Shown here piece by piece: positions 1 to 30,002 of a DNA stretch of 64,000 nucleotides. Source of the stretch: Pseudomonas tumuqii (GTDB taxonomy: Bacteria > Pseudomonadota > Gammaproteobacteria > Pseudomonadales > Pseudomonadaceae); assembly GCF_013184545.1 (NCBI RefSeq), contig NZ_JAAOJA010000007.1, forward strand, positions 124,001 to 188,000. The letters run 5' to 3'. The notes under the pieces are model-generated. The model did no database searches, was not told the origin of the DNA, and saw only the letters and a program-made list of their open reading frames with translations. Position 1 is the first letter of the stretch, and each line of letters begins with the position of its first letter. The translations under genes were made by a program, and so were the position numbers.

Positions 1-537
1 GACAACGAGGCCCTGCAGCGTGTCAAGCAGGGGCGCAACCCGCTGGGCTTCGAGCAACTGCTAACCGTCGACAGCCACCAAACCCATCTGGCCATGGTGC
101 GCCACCTGGCAGCAACCGCTCGTCCGGCCATCGTCATCGCCGGGAACGGAATGTGCAGCAGTGGTCGAATTGTCAATTATCTGAAAGCCATGCTCCACGA
201 TCCTCGACATGACGTACTCTTCATCGGTTACCAAGCACAAGGCACGCCCGGCCGAGCGATCCAGATGTATGGTGAGCGCGGTGGTTACGTCGATTTAGAC
301 GGAGAGCGCTACAAGATTGGCGCCAAAATCAATACCATAGGCGGCTATTCAGCCCATGCGGATCAGAAAGGCCTGCTGGGTTTCGTCACCCGCATGCGCG
401 ACTGGCCCAGCCAAGTGCGCATCGTCCATGGTGAAACCAGCGCCAAACACGAACTCGGCGAACGCCTCAAGGCGCTCTACAAGCAGGCCCAACGCAACCT
501 GGAGCTATCAATCCCCAGCGGCACAAGCGATACCTAA
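1..537 (+). CDS. MBL-fold (beta-CASP/RMMBL) metallo-hydrolase, C-terminal part
   Basis: The reading frame is open from the first base and ends at TAA 535-537, so only the last 178 residues are visible. They match the C-terminal half of beta-CASP metallo-beta-lactamase proteins of the RNA-processing type, with the glycine-rich segment GNGMCSSGR and the late metal-site segment GGYSAHADQ followed by a short helical tail. Members of this family are zinc-dependent nucleases or nuclease-like hydrolases in the cytoplasm. The N-terminal HxHxDH metal motif lies outside the window, so activity cannot be judged. It appears unrelated to the polysaccharide genes downstream and marks the left edge of that locus. 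Confidence 0.8.
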   Translation, partial: DNEALQRVKQGRNPLGFEQLLTVDSHQTHLAMVRHLAATARPAIVIAGNGMCSSGRIVNYLKAMLHDPRHDVLFIGYQAQGTPGRAIQMYGERGGYVDLDGERYKIGAKINTIGGYSAHADQKGLLGFVTRMRDWPSQVRIVHGETSAKHELGERLKALYKQAQRNLELSIPSGTSDT

Positions 538-538
538 C

Positions 539-562
539 TGTAGGAGCCAGCTTGCTGGCGAT
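539..562. repeat. REP-like palindrome, copy 1
   Basis: The sequence TGTAGGAGCCAGCTTGCTGG, preceded here by C instead of T, carries an imperfect inverted repeat around GCCAGCTTGCTGGC. The same unit recurs at 621-644 with one change in the loop. It resembles the dispersed GTAGGAGC-type intergenic repeats of Pseudomonas. Confidence 0.7.
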
Positions 563-620
563 ATTCGTTATCTCCACAGGGATGTGGAAAATGCAGTAAG
601 CCGTGAAGAATACGGCTCTT

Positions 621-644
621 TGTAGGAGCCAGCTCGCTGGCGAT
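621..644. repeat. REP-like palindrome, copy 2
   Basis: Second copy of the 539-562 unit in the same orientation, about 82 bases downstream. The inverted repeat GCCAGCTCGCTGGC is complete. It probably has no coding role. Confidence 0.7.
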
Positions 645-850
645 CCAGCATTCTGGTGATCCAGCAGGCCGCCACCTAACCGGCACCTGGCGACAAATAT
701 AAATGTGGCCTCAACAGCCAAAAAACCTTCCTATCCATCCTAACGGCTGGCCAGGTCGGAACAGATCCTGCACCCGGCCCAACCAAGCCAGGTGCAAACA
801 GGAGTGAACTGTCGGTCTGTAGATGCTGCGCCGATTTGCTTGATACCCAT

Positions 851-1372
851 ATGAATGTAAGTGCCACAACTACCCCCTGCATCGCAGGTACGGCCCCGGC
901 CTGGTACCTCGTGCATTGCAAGTCCCGCCAGGATGAGCGCGCAGAAGAAAACCTGCTGCGCCAGGGCTATGCCTGCTATCGGCCGCAGCACAGCTGCGAG
1001 CGGATAGTGCGTGGCCGTCGACAAATCATCGTCGAATCGCTGTTCCCAGGTTATCTATTCATTAAGCTGGCCGCAGATGCCAACTGGGCACCCCTGCGCT
1101 CGACTCGTGGGGTCATTCGCATCGTGGGTTTCGGCGGCATACCGCTGCGACTCGACGACAGCTTGGTCGAACACCTGCAACAACGCACGACAGCACCCGT
1201 TAAACCGGCCCTCGAAGCAGGGGATAGCGTGCGCATTACCGAAGGTGGCTTTGCCGAGCTGGACGCCATCTTCGTGGCCATGGATGGCGAGCAGCGGGTG
1301 ATACTGCTGCTCAATATGCTCAACCGCCAGCACCAGATCAGCATGCCGCTGGTAAGCATCGTCAAGAACTGA
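851..1372 (+). CDS. rfaH: Transcription antiterminator RfaH (NusG-like)
   Basis: This 173-residue NusG-family protein has the N-terminal NGN domain, with WYLVHCKSRQDERAEENL and the conserved FPGYLFIKL segment, followed by a KOW-type C-terminal domain. RfaH binds RNA polymerase paused at an ops element. It suppresses early termination in long operons for LPS, capsule and similar products, and recruits ribosomes. A TTG at 836 would add five residues; the ATG at 851 is preferred because the conserved domain starts soon after it and TTG has no ribosome binding site. The next transcription unit begins with an ops-containing leader at 1444-1482, which strongly supports RfaH rather than a generic NusG paralogue. 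Confidence 0.92.
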   Translation: MNVSATTTPCIAGTAPAWYLVHCKSRQDERAEENLLRQGYACYRPQHSCERIVRGRRQIIVESLFPGYLFIKLAADANWAPLRSTRGVIRIVGFGGIPLRLDDSLVEHLQQRTTAPVKPALEAGDSVRITEGGFAELDAIFVAMDGEQRVILLLNMLNRQHQISMPLVSIVKN

Positions 1373-1443
1373 TTAAGTCTCGGCACTGGCCGAGATCAAG
1401 GCAACACCCTGGCGACGCCAGTAAAATTTGAAGATTGCGACGT

Positions 1444-1482
1444 TCTCAGGAAACCAACGGTAAATCCTGGGGCGGTAGCGTG
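1444..1482 (+). promoter_or_regulatory. JUMPstart element with ops (RfaH recruitment) site
   Basis: Positions 1471-1482 read GGCGGTAGCGTG, the ops core known to pause RNA polymerase and recruit RfaH. The preceding bases contain GGTAAATCCTGG, which corresponds to the upstream half of the 39-bp JUMPstart sequence of enterobacterial polysaccharide operons. The element lies on the plus strand, downstream of rfaH and ahead of the roughly 27-kb series of same-strand genes from wecB to wbpM. Confidence 0.88.
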
Positions 1483-1523
1483 TCTGAGATGCAAGCCGCA
1501 TACAGGCATGTGCTGCACCGCTC

Positions 1524-1590
1524 TTGTAGGAGGGCCGCCCCGGCGCGATGCCTTTGGTTTTTGAGCGGACTGCGTGCGCCATTCGCTCTG
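1524..1590. repeat. Dispersed TGTAGGAGG/GCGGAC-type intergenic repeat
   Basis: The segment has TGTAGGAGGGCCGCC, then a CGCGATGCC stretch, then GAGCGGACTGCGTGCGCC. Related arrangements of a GTAGGAGG or CTCCTAC end with a palindromic GCGGAC...GTCCGC core occur at about 26.5, 26.65 and 28.9 kb. It looks like a member of an intergenic repeat family and is here decayed in its palindromic part. Confidence 0.5.
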
Positions 1591-1743
1591 ATGTTTGTTC
1601 GGTCCACGCGGACTAGGAAATGCCGCAAGCCCTCTAATGCGTAAGATAAATCCATCGTTGTAGGCGACCAACCTCAGGGCAATGCTTGCGCTCCCCAGGG
1701 TTCCCTAAACGTCCCGATCAAAATTGGCTGTATTGGTAATTTA

Positions 1744-2871
1744 ATGTCTTTAAAAACCCTTTGCGTGTTCGGCACGCGCCCCGAAGCCATCAAGATGGCT
1801 CCGCTCGCTCTGGCGCTTACCGCCGATGAGCGCTTCGAGGCTCAGGTGTGCGTTACCGGTCAGCACAGGCAGATGCTCGACCAGGTGCTCGATCTGTTTG
1901 AGTTGAAGCCCGACTATGACCTGAACATCATGAAGCCAGGGCAAGATCTCTCCGATGTAACTACTGCCATCCTGCAAGGGATGAAGGCGGTTTTCAGTGA
2001 GTTTCGGCCGGATATCGTCTTGGTACATGGAGATACGGCTACGACCTTCGCTACGACATTGGCGGCCTATTACCACCAGATCCCGGTTGCTCACGTTGAA
2101 GCAGGGCTGCGTACGGGTAATCTCTATTCCCCTTGGCCGGAGGAGGCTAACCGCAAGCTGACCGGCGCTTTGGCTGCTCTACATTTTGCCCCTACGAATA
2201 CCTCTCGCCAGAACTTGTTGAATGAAGGCGTGGATATGGCTGCAATTCACGTTACCGGTAATACGGTGATCGACGCTCTATTGGAGATAGTTGCAAAGCT
2301 GGACACCACCGAAAGCCTGCAGCGCCAATTCAAAGAGCAGTTCGCCTTCTTGCCAGGCGACAAGCGGATAATCCTTGTTACGGGCCATCGTCGTGAGAGT
2401 TTTGGCGATGGCTTCGAGCGCATCTGCCAAGCCTTGGTTGATACGGCCAAAGCCTTTCCTGATGTAGAAATCGTTTACCCCGTGCACCTCAACCCCAATG
2501 TGCGCGAGCCGGTTAATCGGCTGCTGGCAGGTGTCGACAACATCCACCTGATCGAGCCGCTCGACTACCTGCCCTTTGTCTACCTGATGAATCGTGCCTA
2601 TCTGATCCTTACCGATTCGGGCGGTATTCAGGAAGAGGCACCGTCTCTCGGTAAGCCCGTGCTGGTCATGCGTGACACCACCGAGCGGCCGGAAGCAGTC
2701 GAAGCAGGTACCGTCAAACTGGTAGGCACCGAAGTAGACGCAATCAGCAGCAATATACATACCTTGTTAACGGATACTCACGCTTACCAACGCATGAGCT
2801 TTGCCCATAATCCTTATGGTGATGGCAAGGCCTGCGCACGCATCATCGAGACGTTAATCAACATTCGTTAG
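1744..2871 (+). CDS. wecB: UDP-N-acetylglucosamine 2-epimerase (non-hydrolysing)
   Basis: This 375-residue cytoplasmic enzyme interconverts UDP-GlcNAc and UDP-ManNAc. Family landmarks are [13 protein letters not shown] at the N-terminus, HGDTATTFA near residue 95, EAGLRT near 118, [11 protein letters not shown] near 214, and the late [18 protein letters not shown] nucleotide-binding stretch. Length is normal for the family. It is the first gene after the ops leader and is followed by wecC, so the pair supplies UDP-ManNAcA. An alternative name from O-antigen loci is wbpI-like, but WbpI acts on 2,3-diacetamido uronic acids and the partner genes for that pathway are absent. Confidence 0.93.
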
Positions 2872-2959
2872 CATTAGATTATTAAATTCCCAGTTTTTTA
2901 AAAGAATGGGCCGGGTAAGGGCGGGTTTCTTTACCCGCTATCAGATCATAGGAAGAAGC

Positions 2960-4231
2960 ATGCCATTTGAAACCATTTCCGTCGTTGGCCTGGGCTATAT
3001 CGGTTTGCCTACTGCGGCAGTATTTGCGTCTCGCAAGAAGAAAGTGATTGGCGTCGATGTCAATCAGCGGGCGGTGGATACCATCAACCGCGGTGAAATC
3101 CATATTGTCGAACCAGATCTGGACATGGTGGTGCATGCTGCCGTTACCGAAGGTTATTTGCGTGCGACAACCAAGGCAGAACCGGCAGATGCGTTTCTGA
3201 TTGCAGTGCCGACCCCGTTCAAGGGCGATCACGAACCGGATCTCTCCTATATCGAGTCAGCGAGTAAGGCTATTGCGCCAGTCCTGAAGAAAGGCGACCT
3301 GGTCATCCTCGAATCTACCTCTCCGGTGGGGGCCACAGAGCAGATGGCTGTCTGGTTGGCTGAGGCGCGTCCGGATTTGACCTTTCCGCAGTCCCATGGA
3401 GAAGCTTCCGACATTCGCGTTGCTCACTGTCCGGAGCGAGTCCTTCCTGGCCACGTGCTACGCGAACTGGTACAGAACGACCGAGTGATAGGAGGCATGA
3501 CAGCCAAATGCTCCGAGGCGGCGGTAAAGCTCTACAAAACCATCGTGGAAGGCGAGTGCGTAATTACCAATGCGCGGACTGCGGAAATGTGCAAACTCAC
3601 TGAAAACAGCTTTCGTGATGTGAATATTGCTTTTGCCAATGAACTATCGATTATTTGTGACAAGCTGGATATCAATGCTTGGGAGTTGATTCGTCTGGCT
3701 AACCGGCACCCACGCGTCAATATATTGCAGCCCGGGCCTGGCGTTGGCGGGCACTGTATCGCTGTGGATCCTTGGTTTATTGTTAGCAGCACTCCAGAAG
3801 AAGCAAAGCTTATTCGCGTAGCGCGCGACGTTAACGACGGCAAACCGCTCTGGGTTAATGACAAGGTGAAGTTGGCAGTGGCTGAGTTCTTGCAGGAAAA
3901 TCCAGAGAAGACAGCTTTGGATGTGACCATTGCTTGTTTTGGTTTGGCTTTTAAACCTGATATAGATGATCTGCGTGAAAGCCCTGCCTTAGCGATTGCC
4001 GAGAATATTGCCGCCACCCACCCCGGTTGTGTACTGGCGGTTGAGCCAAACATTGAAGAACTACCGGTTAAGCTAGCAGGTAAAAAACTGGTTCTGAAAA
4101 GTCTTGATCAAGCACTGGCCGAATCTGACGTGTTGGTGTTGTTGGTAGACCATAAGGTATTTAAGGATATTCCTGTGGCTGCGCTTCGAGGCCGTAAAAT
4201 CGTTGATACTAGAGGGGTTTGGATAGCTTAA
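2960..4231 (+). CDS. wecC: UDP-N-acetyl-D-mannosamine dehydrogenase
   Basis: This 423-residue member of the UDP-glucose/GDP-mannose dehydrogenase family oxidises C6 of UDP-ManNAc to UDP-ManNAcA with NAD+. It has the Rossmann start VVGLGYIGLPTAAVF, the ESTSPVGATE segment, HCPERVLPG, NSFRDVNIAFANEL, and the catalytic cysteine in GPGVGGHCIAVDPWF. An upstream in-frame start at 2906 exists. The ATG at 2960 is preferred because it is preceded by GGAAG and places the Rossmann motif at the expected N-terminal position. It follows wecB directly. Confidence 0.93.
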   Translation: MPFETISVVGLGYIGLPTAAVFASRKKKVIGVDVNQRAVDTINRGEIHIVEPDLDMVVHAAVTEGYLRATTKAEPADAFLIAVPTPFKGDHEPDLSYIESASKAIAPVLKKGDLVILESTSPVGATEQMAVWLAEARPDLTFPQSHGEASDIRVAHCPERVLPGHVLRELVQNDRVIGGMTAKCSEAAVKLYKTIVEGECVITNARTAEMCKLTENSFRDVNIAFANELSIICDKLDINAWELIRLANRHPRVNILQPGPGVGGHCIAVDPWFIVSSTPEEAKLIRVARDVNDGKPLWVNDKVKLAVAEFLQENPEKTALDVTIACFGLAFKPDIDDLRESPALAIAENIAATHPGCVLAVEPNIEELPVKLAGKKLVLKSLDQALAESDVLVLLVDHKVFKDIPVAALRGRKIVDTRGVWIA

Positions 4232-16391: not shown

Positions 16392-16429
16392 TTGACGATT
16401 TTCTTAGTTGCTAAAAGTTGGTGGAAGTA

Positions 16430-17740
16430 ATGATTCTAATAAGACAGTTTTATCCAATTTTCCTTTTGTTTCTTTCATGGCTATCAGTGGTGGCTGTGAG
16501 AAATACTTTTTTTTTGGAGTTTGAGCCAATAAGTGCTGATGCGAAGTTTTATCTATTTTTGTTTTTCGTTGTAGCGGTTTTTGGTTATCTTTTGGGTAGT
16601 GTCGGAGTGCTTTTCCCGGGAAAAAATGAGGGGGGTGCTTATGGTGCTCGTAGTGTTAATGTGAAAGCCAATTGGCTGATTTTTTTTACGTTAATATCAA
16701 TTTTTTTTGCTCTTGTTAAGTTTTATTATTCAGTGGGGTTTTCAGGGTTTTCGCTGAATATGATTGCAGAGTACCGTATGCTGCGTGCGCGTGATGGAGA
16801 TGATACTAAGGGTGGGAGTATATTCGGTGTTATTAGTACCATTACCTCCGCTTTTATTGTTGTAGTATATATTTATGGAATTTATTTTAAGCGATACTTG
16901 TCGAGGCGTAAGGCGGCTGCAATAAAGTTGGTGTTTTTCTTTGGGCTTGCTATTTCGTTTCTTGGTGGAGGAAGATTCTCCGCTGCGATATCTGTGCTTT
17001 TTGTTTTTTTATTTAGTTTATGTCATTACGTTTGCTTGCGAAAGGGTGGTATGGTTTCAGGGCAGCTCTCTCGAACAGCCCCAAAGTGGGGTAGGAAAAT
17101 AGTTTACGTTATTCCTCTTCTAGTTTTATTTTCTTATATGTTTGTCGCGCGCTTTACTGTTGATGGTAGAGGCGATGAGTTAGTCTTGAGTTACCTCAAT
17201 TCGGGGCTCCCTGGTGTTGCTGTTCCGGATGATGTTTGGCTGTATTTGAGTGATTCGTCTTTTCTTCTGTTTCCTTACTTTATTCTTGCGATGTTCTTTT
17301 ATTATATTGGGCATTCTTTCTACCAGTTCGATATTTTGCTGCAATATGGCATTCCCGAGAGTGCACCCTACGCACTGGCATATCAGTTGTACCCGTTTGC
17401 GTTGTTTTTTAATAAGCTTGGGTCGGAAATTATTCCCATTGAATCTATTTTGAATGAGCTCCCCAATGCAGGCACTTATTTTTCTTTGGCGGGAGCGTTC
17501 TATCTCGATTTTGGTTATTGGGGGGCTTTTATTGCGGTTTTTCTTGTGTTTTTCGCCGGAGCTCTTTCGTGGGGGTGGATGCTGAGGCGCGGTGGTTTTC
17601 TATCGCTGTATTTTTCAAGTATGTTTATGGTGCTTTTGATTTTCTCGCCAATTGTCGGTGTCATTGGCACTGCTATATATCCGTCCTTGATTGCGGTTTC
17701 TTTGTTTTTGTGGGTTTTCGTTCCGGCTAGATCTCGGTAG
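16430..17740 (+). CDS. wzy: O-antigen repeat-unit polymerase (Wzy-like)
   Basis: This 436-residue protein has about 11-12 membrane segments and larger hydrophilic loops. AEYRMLRARDGDDTKGGS follows near residue 113 and the FLGGGRFSAAIS motif near residue 182, as in oligosaccharide repeat-unit polymerases. A TTG at 16418 is in frame, but the ATG at 16430 has GGTGGA directly upstream. The protein should link O-units in the periplasm. It is the most AT-rich gene in the window together with wzx. No wzz is present nearby. Confidence 0.78.
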   Translation: MILIRQFYPIFLLFLSWLSVVAVRNTFFLEFEPISADAKFYLFLFFVVAVFGYLLGSVGVLFPGKNEGGAYGARSVNVKANWLIFFTLISIFFALVKFYYSVGFSGFSLNMIAEYRMLRARDGDDTKGGSIFGVISTITSAFIVVVYIYGIYFKRYLSRRKAAAIKLVFFFGLAISFLGGGRFSAAISVLFVFLFSLCHYVCLRKGGMVSGQLSRTAPKWGRKIVYVIPLLVLFSYMFVARFTVDGRGDELVLSYLNSGLPGVAVPDDVWLYLSDSSFLLFPYFILAMFFYYIGHSFYQFDILLQYGIPESAPYALAYQLYPFALFFNKLGSEIIPIESILNELPNAGTYFSLAGAFYLDFGYWGAFIAVFLVFFAGALSWGWMLRRGGFLSLYFSSMFMVLLIFSPIVGVIGTAIYPSLIAVSLFLWVFVPARSR

Positions 17741-29262: not shown

Positions 29263-29682
29263 ATGACTGATCAAGACATTCGCTGGCAACAGCGCCTGGT
29301 CAACTACAGCCGGGCACTCGCTCAATTAACTCGAGCAGTCGAGTTGGCTCGTTCGCGGCAACTGAGTGAGCTGGAAAAGCAGGGCCTGATTCAGGCATTC
29401 GAATTTGTTTTTGAGCTGGCTTGGAATCTGATGAAGGACTATTTCCTCTACCAGGGAAATCCCGGCATTACTGGCTCGCGCGATGCCATTCGCACTGCTT
29501 TCAAACAAGGATTGATCAGTGACGGAGAGGGCTGGATGGAAATGATCAAGAGTCGTAACCAGACAGCGCACACCTACAACGAATCCGTCGCCAACGAGAT
29601 CACTGAGAAGATCATGGTGCTGTACTACGACCTGTTTCAGCAGTACGAGAAACACATGCAAGATCTGGCCGACCAGATATGA
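29263..29682 (+). CDS. HepT-like toxin (HI0074-type nucleotidyltransferase substrate-binding protein)
   Basis: This 139-residue helical protein belongs to the HEPN-like HI0074/DUF86 group. The sequence [12 protein letters not shown] contains the RX4HXY motif that marks HEPN RNase active sites in HepT-type toxins. Its stop overlaps the ATG of a minimal nucleotidyltransferase gene by four bases. In the known HepT/MntA systems, MntA AMPylates the tyrosine of this motif and neutralises the RNase. The pair stands alone in an intergenic repeat zone, typical of mobile or accessory cassettes. The HEPN toxin role is inferred from the motif and pairing. Confidence 0.82.
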
Positions 29683-30002
29683 CTGACGAACTCAGCTTTG
29701 GATTGCCAGCGCATGCTGTCGAAAAACTCCGGGGAGTTTTCCAAGGCTGGCCACAGATCCAGCGCGTGTTGCTCTATGGTTCGCGGGCCAAAGGCAACTA
29801 TCGACCCGGTTCCGATATTGATCTTGCAATCGAAGGCGATGAGCTTTCGCTCTCACAAATGTTAGCCATCGAGAATCAGATTGATGATCTGCTGTTGCCC
29901 TGGATGGTGGATATCTCCCTTAAGCATCGAATTGAAAATCCTGCGTTACTCGATCACATTGAGCGTGTAGGCATATCTTTCTATACGCGACAGGGACACT
30001 GA
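29679..30002 (+). CDS. MntA-like minimal nucleotidyltransferase antitoxin
   Basis: This 107-residue minimal nucleotidyltransferase shows [18 protein letters not shown], an exact GSX10DXD catalytic motif, with a further conserved acidic residue near [10 protein letters not shown]. It is the usual partner of a HEPN-domain protein. The ATG at 29679 overlaps the preceding stop, so translation is coupled. By analogy with MntA it would transfer AMP to the upstream protein. HI0073/HI0074 is another described pair with this layout, without proven toxicity. Confidence 0.84.

Follow-up and report, generated by a model that had tools for sequence, protein, structure and literature searches.

The rfaH-JUMPstart locus of Pseudomonas tumuqii

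The window analyzed here is a stretch of 64,000 nucleotides (nt) of Pseudomonas tumuqii (GCF_013184545.1, contig NZ_JAAOJA010000007.1, positions 124,001-188,000 of the forward strand). Near its start it contains a gene for the antiterminator RfaH, a JUMPstart/ops-like element and a long O-antigen operon. A preliminary description of this DNA had placed the element at 1444-1482, with rfaH directly upstream and about 23 same-strand genes spanning roughly 27 kb behind it, and had proposed local control by the adjacent regulator. We consider it very probable that 1441-1482 is a Pseudomonas form of JUMPstart/ops at which RfaH, encoded 99 nt upstream, loads to drive the 27-kb operon, and that the unit of gene and element is a dock. 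The features of the locus, with the evidence for each (R1 and A4 are described below), are as follows.

851-1372, plus strand: rfaH, NusG-family antiterminator (TIGR01955, PF02357, phmmer), with ATG 851 as the presumed start
1373-1440, plus strand: gap from the rfaH stop to JUMPstart, with two short GC stems and no T run behind them (sequence)
1441-1482, plus strand: JUMPstart-like element of Pseudomonas type, 42 nt (R1, 11-mer conservation)
1445-1471, plus strand: RNA stem-loop pairing 1445-1451 with 1465-1471, inner helix 1453-1455 with 1459-1461 (A4 covariation, single-strand folds)
1471-1482, plus strand: ops core GGCGGTAGCGTG, putative RfaH loading and pause site (sequence)
1483-1743, plus strand: leader from ops to wecB, mostly unshared between loci (blastn)
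1744-28825, plus strand: target operon, 23 same-strand genes from the wecB start to the wbpM end, 27.1 kb (open reading frames (ORFs), domain models)

The open frame of rfaH opens at TTG 836, with ATG 851 the likelier start, and ends at 1372. Its product scored 169 bits against the RfaH equivalog model TIGR01955, above the cut-off of 144.5, which confirms the identity given to it before. It also scored 142.5 bits against NF006534 (cut-off 124) and 79.7 bits against PF02357, and phmmer matched it to E. coli RfaH structures with a best E of 9.1e-29. The score against the UpxY model, 62.8 bits, was below the cut-off of 100. Upstream of the gene, at 538-660, are two copies of the palindromic repeat TGTAGGAGCCAGCTNGCTGGCGAT, which we take to be of the repetitive extragenic palindromic (REP) type.

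The element lies in the leader of a long polysaccharide operon, for which counting gave 23 genes and 27.1 kb, in agreement with the earlier estimate. Judged from spacing and strand, the 23 genes are probably co-transcribed. They include wecB, wecC, a pseudaminic-acid set (pseB, pseC, a pseF-like gene, pseG and a neuB family member), wzx- and wzy-like genes, glycosyltransferases and wbpM. The wzy gene is presumably such from its place in the operon, and wbpM is the name that we assume from a domain match. The pseF-like gene scored below its cut-off, and the ORF at 16418-17740 had no Pfam match. At 12-18 kb the GC content is 40-43%; elsewhere in the operon it ranges over 49-61%, and the first 1.5 kb of the window has 58%. 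No sigma-70-like promoter match was found in the gap 1373-1440, and a consensus scan of 500-3000, itself insensitive, gave no promoter-like and no plus-strand terminator-like site in 560-1744. The weak ribosome site ahead of wecB (-2.8 kcal/mol) was not used as evidence; 3 of 9 compared genes had sites equally weak or weaker. Just past wbpM, at 29263-30002, lies a gene pair matching PF08780 and PF18765, presumably HepT-MntA-like.

An ops core within a conserved JUMPstart-like element

The ops core GGCGGTAGNNT was matched exactly at 1471-1481. The ops 12-mer GGCGGTAGCGTG, starting 99 nt past the rfaH stop, was confirmed at 1471-1482 on the plus strand, and GGCGGTAGCNT had a single exact copy in the window. 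With one mismatch allowed, the window contained 7 ops-like sites against 4.7 expected, and 19 of 100 shuffles gave as many; the core alone is therefore not significant. For comparison, the best 80 of 326 rfaH loci, each up to 20 kb, were collected from Pseudomonas, Azotobacter, Stutzerimonas, Serpens and Halopseudomonas. The exact 11-mer GGCGGTAGCGT was present somewhere in the locus, at distances of up to about 10 kb, in 74 of the 80, while about 500 permuted 11-mers of the same composition occurred in a mean of 1.0 loci (largest 21). On the same strand and within 1.5 kb downstream of rfaH, GGCGGTAGCGT was found in 52 of 80 loci and the permuted 11-mers in a mean of 0.04 (largest 2).

A covariance model, R1, was built from 61 elements of the relatives and the window, chosen by the exact 11-mer as sole criterion. 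Searched with R1, the P. tumuqii genome gave the window element (C7:125437-125482) at 70.6 bits and an E of 1.5e-17, with the runner-up at E 0.053. Since R1 was trained on the relatives together with the window sequence, the window's score is partly by construction, and we regard conservation among the relatives as the more independent evidence for the element. The bases ahead of ops had been described as fitting the 39-bp JUMPstart layout from 1444 on; that boundary was correct to within 3 nt, the conserved block starting at 1441. As read from sequence, 1441-1482 is a Pseudomonas variant of the JUMPstart/ops element that falls below the Rfam cut-off.

In the whole own genome the exact 11-mer had 16 copies, compared with 46 for a reversed control. 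The 15 copies other than that of the window were placed by ORF calls filtered by GC at third codon positions (GC3): 10 lie within larger ORFs, the one in L014 sits at an ORF end, those in L015 and L016 fall in small or less certain ORFs, and the remaining two, in L007 and L011, occupy gaps where the next gene is opposed. The site in L016 (1501-1512; G000:C19:51787) carries an exact GGCGGTAGCGTG preceded by a short CCCC/GGGG stem, and its R1 E is 0.053. It is located near a contig end, inside another small ORF; ORF calls without the GC3 filter show a low-GC gene of the EcsC family 458 nt downstream of it, in the same orientation. The preliminary description had held that the O-antigen operon was the only obvious RfaH target and that many ops copies at unrelated genes would speak against this. 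One strong element genome-wide, fewer exact copies than the reversed control and the finding that L016 alone might head a gene uphold the claim; the 16 exact copies and a possible second target at L016 qualify it.

That the 11-mer is a chance match might be argued from its 16 exact genome copies and the 7 window sites at one mismatch. We give this explanation practically no credence: conservation in rfaH loci, the R1 score and the co-occurrence with rfaH described below speak against it.

A covarying stem-loop adjoins ops

Alignment A4 contained the window and 60 distinct sequences from 79 sites in those 74 loci, the first 11 ops bases being identical by selection. The main seven-pair stem was paired in 98.3% of cells and the inner helix in 69.8%, and three main-stem pairs showed compensatory changes on both sides. 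Covariation over the whole structure was 0.218 compared with 0.154 for shuffled alignments, and none of 500 shuffles scored as high. Kinship among sequences can push covariation above shuffles without any structure; controls in which the pairing partners were slid retain that kinship, and their covariation was still lower. The fold energy of the window sequence is unremarkable (z-score -1.5). An RNAalifold consensus of a smaller alignment, A3, kept the upper five pairs and shifted the lower ones by one. The stem lies immediately upstream of ops, in the same position as in E. coli K-12 rfb and waaQ, between which one middle pair is inverted. A conserved stem-loop in JUMPstart elements was reported by Weinberg 2010 (PMC2864571), so that the stem as such is known.

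What the stem does can be considered in two ways. It might act as a pause hairpin behind polymerase halted at ops, prolonging the pause for RfaH loading in the manner of the his pause. The last stem pair precedes the pause position, placed at 1481 by comparison with E. coli, by 10-11 nt. The corresponding spacing at the his pause is about 11 nt. The stem formed in folds of RNA ending at 1471-1472. It stays beside ops even where the loop has lost one or two nt (L060, L065, L073, L100, L101, L099 and L104) or gained them (L062 and L107). The ops-paused complex is, however, biochemically distinct from the hairpin-stabilized his complex, on templates that may or may not carry the JUMPstart stem, and binding of RfaH lengthens the hybrid to 11 bp (PMC11001881), far enough to touch the base of the stem here. 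We hold a pause hairpin to be possible, though somewhat less likely than not. Alternatively, the stem could be a barrier to backtracking, or protect the leader, rather than signal a pause. RfaH-bound ops complexes are prone to backtrack and need GreA or Mfd for escape (PMC11001881); a hairpin right behind the polymerase would hinder backtracking, and the covariation fits this role equally, although sequence cannot separate a barrier from a pause hairpin. This alternative seems to us possible but on the unlikely side.

Ops-contacting residues and classes of RfaH

Direct side-chain contacts of RfaH to ops are made by K10, H20, R23 and R73 (PMC5995543). Three of the four, K10, R23 and R73, are retained in the window RfaH, together with R16, Q24, T72 and G74. 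The autoinhibition residues E48, F130, R138 and L142 are retained as well, and I93 is replaced by V, a mild change. The C-terminal domain of free E. coli RfaH is helical (PMC7593976, PMC11001881). AlphaFold2 predicted a beta barrel for that of the window RfaH and likewise for a 96%-E. coli-like control given the same relatives as alignment. The beta call is thus alignment-driven and uninformative on autoinhibition, and AlphaFold2 was dropped as a test of it. In a Foldseek search with the predicted RfaH, recruited RfaH (8phk) ranked top among RfaH entries and second overall behind a NusG model, a result that shares the weakness exposed by the control.

In a tree of 102 RfaH proteins, the arrangement with the element downstream (54 rows) is spread over several clades with 7 changes, and the divergent or distant arrangement (22 rows) required 3. 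One group of 7 rows has the variant GTGCGGTAGCTTTG upstream of rfaH itself, and another of 12 rows has no ops by the patterns tried. No root was drawn because the forks are weak and the outgroup branch is long. The group of 7 corresponds to a second Pseudomonas RfaH class (L166, L167, L171, L172, L178, L179, L180), whose proteins are 45-48% identical to the window RfaH and have Q in place of R23 in all 7 compared. In its loci GTGCGGTAGCTTTG lies 206-301 nt upstream of the rfaH match. This 14-mer was found in 19 genomes of the genus, upstream of rfaH in 12 and elsewhere in 7; it would be a variant ops driving rfaH's own operon. A third class comprises 12 loci (L169, L170, L173-L177, L181-L185) with no ops behind rfaH by the patterns tried; in several of them the next gene starts MT.KTTLVTLTYGDRF and is glycosyltransferase-like by eye.

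Linkage of rfaH and the element across the genus

R1 was used to scan 199 Pseudomonas genomes, 73 with and 126 without rfaH. Presence of rfaH was called from protein matches down to E 5.6e-12, some of them fragments; weaker matches (about 1e-6 to 1e-4) were counted as NusG without one-by-one check, and with over 40 genomes the scan also ran under stricter filters. At E<=1e-4 the element was present in 31 of the 73 genomes with rfaH and in none of the 126 without it (Fisher p 2e-16). At E<=1e-3 the numbers were 32 of 73 and 3 of 126, and the three rfaH-less genomes gave the weakest matches. Of the 34 sites that genomes with rfaH yielded at E<=1e-3, 33 are no more than 6 kb from the gene. Because the R1 training sites came from rfaH loci, in part those of the same genomes, the model itself favors linked sites to some degree; that rfaH-less genomes were empty is no such artefact. 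By these sequence matches, linkage of rfaH and the element is genus-wide. Local control by the adjacent RfaH, as first suggested, is further supported by there being one strong element and two NusG-domain genes in the own genome, this RfaH and one taken as NusG. A scan with GGGGCGGTAGCGTG across the class (274 genomes) gave matches in 5; the 4 genomes other than P. tumuqii had no such stem in folds, and no wider sampling was therefore gained.

Several observations weigh against the interpretation of 1441-1482 as an RfaH-responsive JUMPstart/ops element. The exact 11-mer is missing in 6 of the 80 near relatives (L066, L067, L068, L070, L090, L122), one of which, L068, has the variant GGCGGTAGCAT plus a stem 5.9 kb away. 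The Rfam JUMPstart model RF01707 gave 20.2 bits on the window, nothing reaching its cut-off of 35, and 0 of 4 other Pseudomonas loci reached it; the same model gave 60 and 55.2 bits on E. coli K-12 rfb and waaQ. In the window RfaH the H20 position is N, as in 56 of the 80 (H in 24), and T68, N70 and A71 are replaced by P, R and S. The insensitive consensus scan showed no promoter ahead of the operon. No R1 match at E<=1e-3 was obtained in 41 of the 73 rfaH genomes, although R1 overlooked an ops in at least one of them: in G164 (L168) an exact copy follows rfaH at a distance of about 122 nt. The R1 training sites, all from rfaH loci and partly from genomes then searched, favor linked sites. A JUMPstart-like site at G132:C1:2190292-2190336 (E 9.4e-8) lies 1.1 Mb from rfaH, the sole such site among the 34, and is a candidate remote target. 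Finally, the L016 site may be either chance or a second RfaH target.

The rfaH-JUMPstart unit as a putative dock

In blastn comparison with 10 near relatives, homology spans rfaH and the element; it stops at 1484-1489 in 6 of them and extends to 1534-1567 in the other 4. At a further unit in L054 homology continues through 3000, and wecB is shared again by L054 (at that unit) and L058. Twelve first genes behind the element were located and 10 tested. Six matched NCBIfam models (TviB-type dehydrogenase, RmlB, a CpsG-like mutase below its cut-off, WecB, RmlA and LegB), and 2 of the remaining 4 matched Pfam (flippase-like, cytidylyltransferase). With homology ending at the ops end in 6 of 10 and differing genes behind it, the rfaH-JUMPstart unit looks like a dock for varying polysaccharide clusters. 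On the other side, 28 of 80 loci resemble the window in having a gene of the metallo-beta-lactamase fold no more than 1 kb ahead of rfaH. In L051, L054 and L056, a 3' piece of rfaH is repeated together with the element as direct repeats. The repeated blocks measure 265-380 bp and are 85-96% identical, and two of the copies flank a HepT-MntA-like pair in L054 and L056. Cassettes would thus be exchanged or stacked via homology in rfaH and the element. A plasmid search with 700-1800 as query gave no match.

That homology with 6 of 10 near relatives breaks off where ops ends, and that L051, L054 and L056 carry the direct repeats, could also mean that the element persists mainly as a recombination site for cluster swaps, with little regulatory role. 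The covarying pairs, the ops-contact residues in RfaH and the absence from 126 of 126 rfaH-less genomes (E<=1e-4) would be superfluous for such a site, and we judge this explanation very improbable.

Other arrangements were seen among the loci. NZ_CP019947.1 contains two rfaH-JUMPstart units (L049, L058) about 37 kb apart, with a TviB-type dehydrogenase and wecB, respectively, as first genes. A Group II intron RNA (RF02005, 187.9 bits) lies upstream of the rfaH locus at L049:3275-3497. In L060, L065, L069 and L073 the opposite strand carries a wbpM homolog (65-67% identical) 0.3-0.5 kb upstream of rfaH, so that the two genes are back to back; in the window wbpM closes the cluster.

A proposed mechanism

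In this locus RfaH seems to serve as a local switch, in contrast to the roaming RfaH of E. coli. The element, the conserved stem beside ops, the absence from rfaH-less genomes, the near-single copy and the linkage to rfaH are established here; pausing, loading, NusG exclusion and ribosome recruitment are expected by analogy with E. coli. RNA polymerase entering the O-antigen leader would pause at ops once the RNA reaches about 1481, which corresponds to the E. coli pause position U11 (PMC11001881). The non-template strand would present the ops hairpin, to which RfaH would bind. Loaded RfaH would displace NusG and keep it off, escape Rho and help to recruit ribosomes, and transcription would continue for 27 kb, across the AT-rich middle and as far as wbpM. 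With its end 10-11 nt short of the pause, the stem may prolong the halt or impede backtracking. Since ops comes only after rfaH, the protein would enhance expression of the cargo but not of its own gene, and each cluster arriving behind the dock would thereby come under the same RfaH control.

RfaH might act on the transcript that encodes it. With rfaH and the O-antigen genes on one transcript, a pause 50-100 nt past the rfaH stop could hold polymerase until RfaH made by the ribosome behind it binds. Among the 52 downstream loci, 36 have ops starting 52-103 nt past the rfaH stop; about 30 nt ahead of ops belong to the element, and the shortest gaps leave some 20-45 nt. A shared transcript with delivery of RfaH in cis may thus exist: the shortest gaps could hardly accommodate a promoter, and the insensitive consensus scan showed no intrinsic terminator in the window gap; a cis-recruitment model for ancestral RfaH is given in section 8 of PMC13015549. 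Yet gaps measure 153-892 nt in 16 of the 52 loci, and a promoter within the rfaH 3' end is possible given the insensitive scan. Another 21 of the 80 loci have the element on the opposite strand, 3.5-5.4 kb from the rfaH stop; there RfaH would have to act on a separate transcript, so that delivery in cis is not general. We regard it as possible but on the whole unlikely.

More speculatively, and with rather little confidence, Pseudomonadaceae might possess a self-loading local antiterminator, in which a hairpin-reinforced ops pause past the rfaH stop awaits RfaH from the same transcript and the unit serves as a portable anti-Rho dock for incoming cassettes. If true, self-loading RfaH would be a step between cis-acting ancestral RfaH and trans-acting E. 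coli RfaH. The preliminary description proved correct in what it observed and, broadly, in what it made of it. The additions are genus-wide co-occurrence and linkage, the covarying stem, the divergence from Rfam, a putative dock whose cargo varies between loci, and a single possible second site.

Comparison with known systems

RfaH is the model of a refolding regulator, and its need for ops has been explained by action at a distance. The window RfaH family retains most direct ops contacts together with a conserved ops and an adjacent target, which suggests that ops and close linkage are compatible in a large group and bears on RfaH evolution. The covarying stem allows a direct test of RNA help at natural ops pauses. 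The dock suggests how different O-antigen clusters arrive and are expressed at once, of interest for phage and host recognition in environmental Pseudomonas. Among the matches listed in our literature search, which mainly covered the main text of papers open without subscription, there was no study of ops/JUMPstart control in Pseudomonas, and neither the Pseudomonas form of the stem nor its rfaH linkage appeared among them. The word Pseudomonas is absent from the main text of PMC7593976 and PMC13015549, and in PMC5532660 an RfaH-domain protein is merely proposed as activator of an exopolysaccharide locus in P. stutzeri.

The monomorphic cis-located RfaH homologs of a 2026 preprint (PMC13015549) share with the window an rfaH beside a long polysaccharide operon. 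Relative to the homologs described there, the Pseudomonas family retains K10, R23 and R73, though not H20, and has a strongly conserved ops next to rfaH. The beta C-terminal domain that AlphaFold2 predicted would resemble that monomorphic class, but the prediction is alignment-driven and was beta for the E. coli-like control as well. UpxY (Bacteroides) and TaA (Myxococcus) are likewise NusG paralogs encoded with their target operon; they lie within their own operons and their recruitment is described as unknown (PMC7593976), whereas the window has ops and its protein falls below the UpxY cut-off. The Rfam JUMPstart RNA RF01707 (PMC2864571) has the same order of stem-loop and ops core, and both E. 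coli K-12 loci reach its cut-off, unlike the window and the 4 other Pseudomonas loci. Another close system is E. coli RfaH with the JUMPstart/ops of rfb and waaQ, with which the window shares an RfaH equivalog, an identical ops 12-mer, a stem directly upstream of ops and a long polysaccharide operon as target. In comparison with E. coli, the loop sequence differs, the Rfam model stays below cut-off, and the genome has one strong element, placed beside rfaH.
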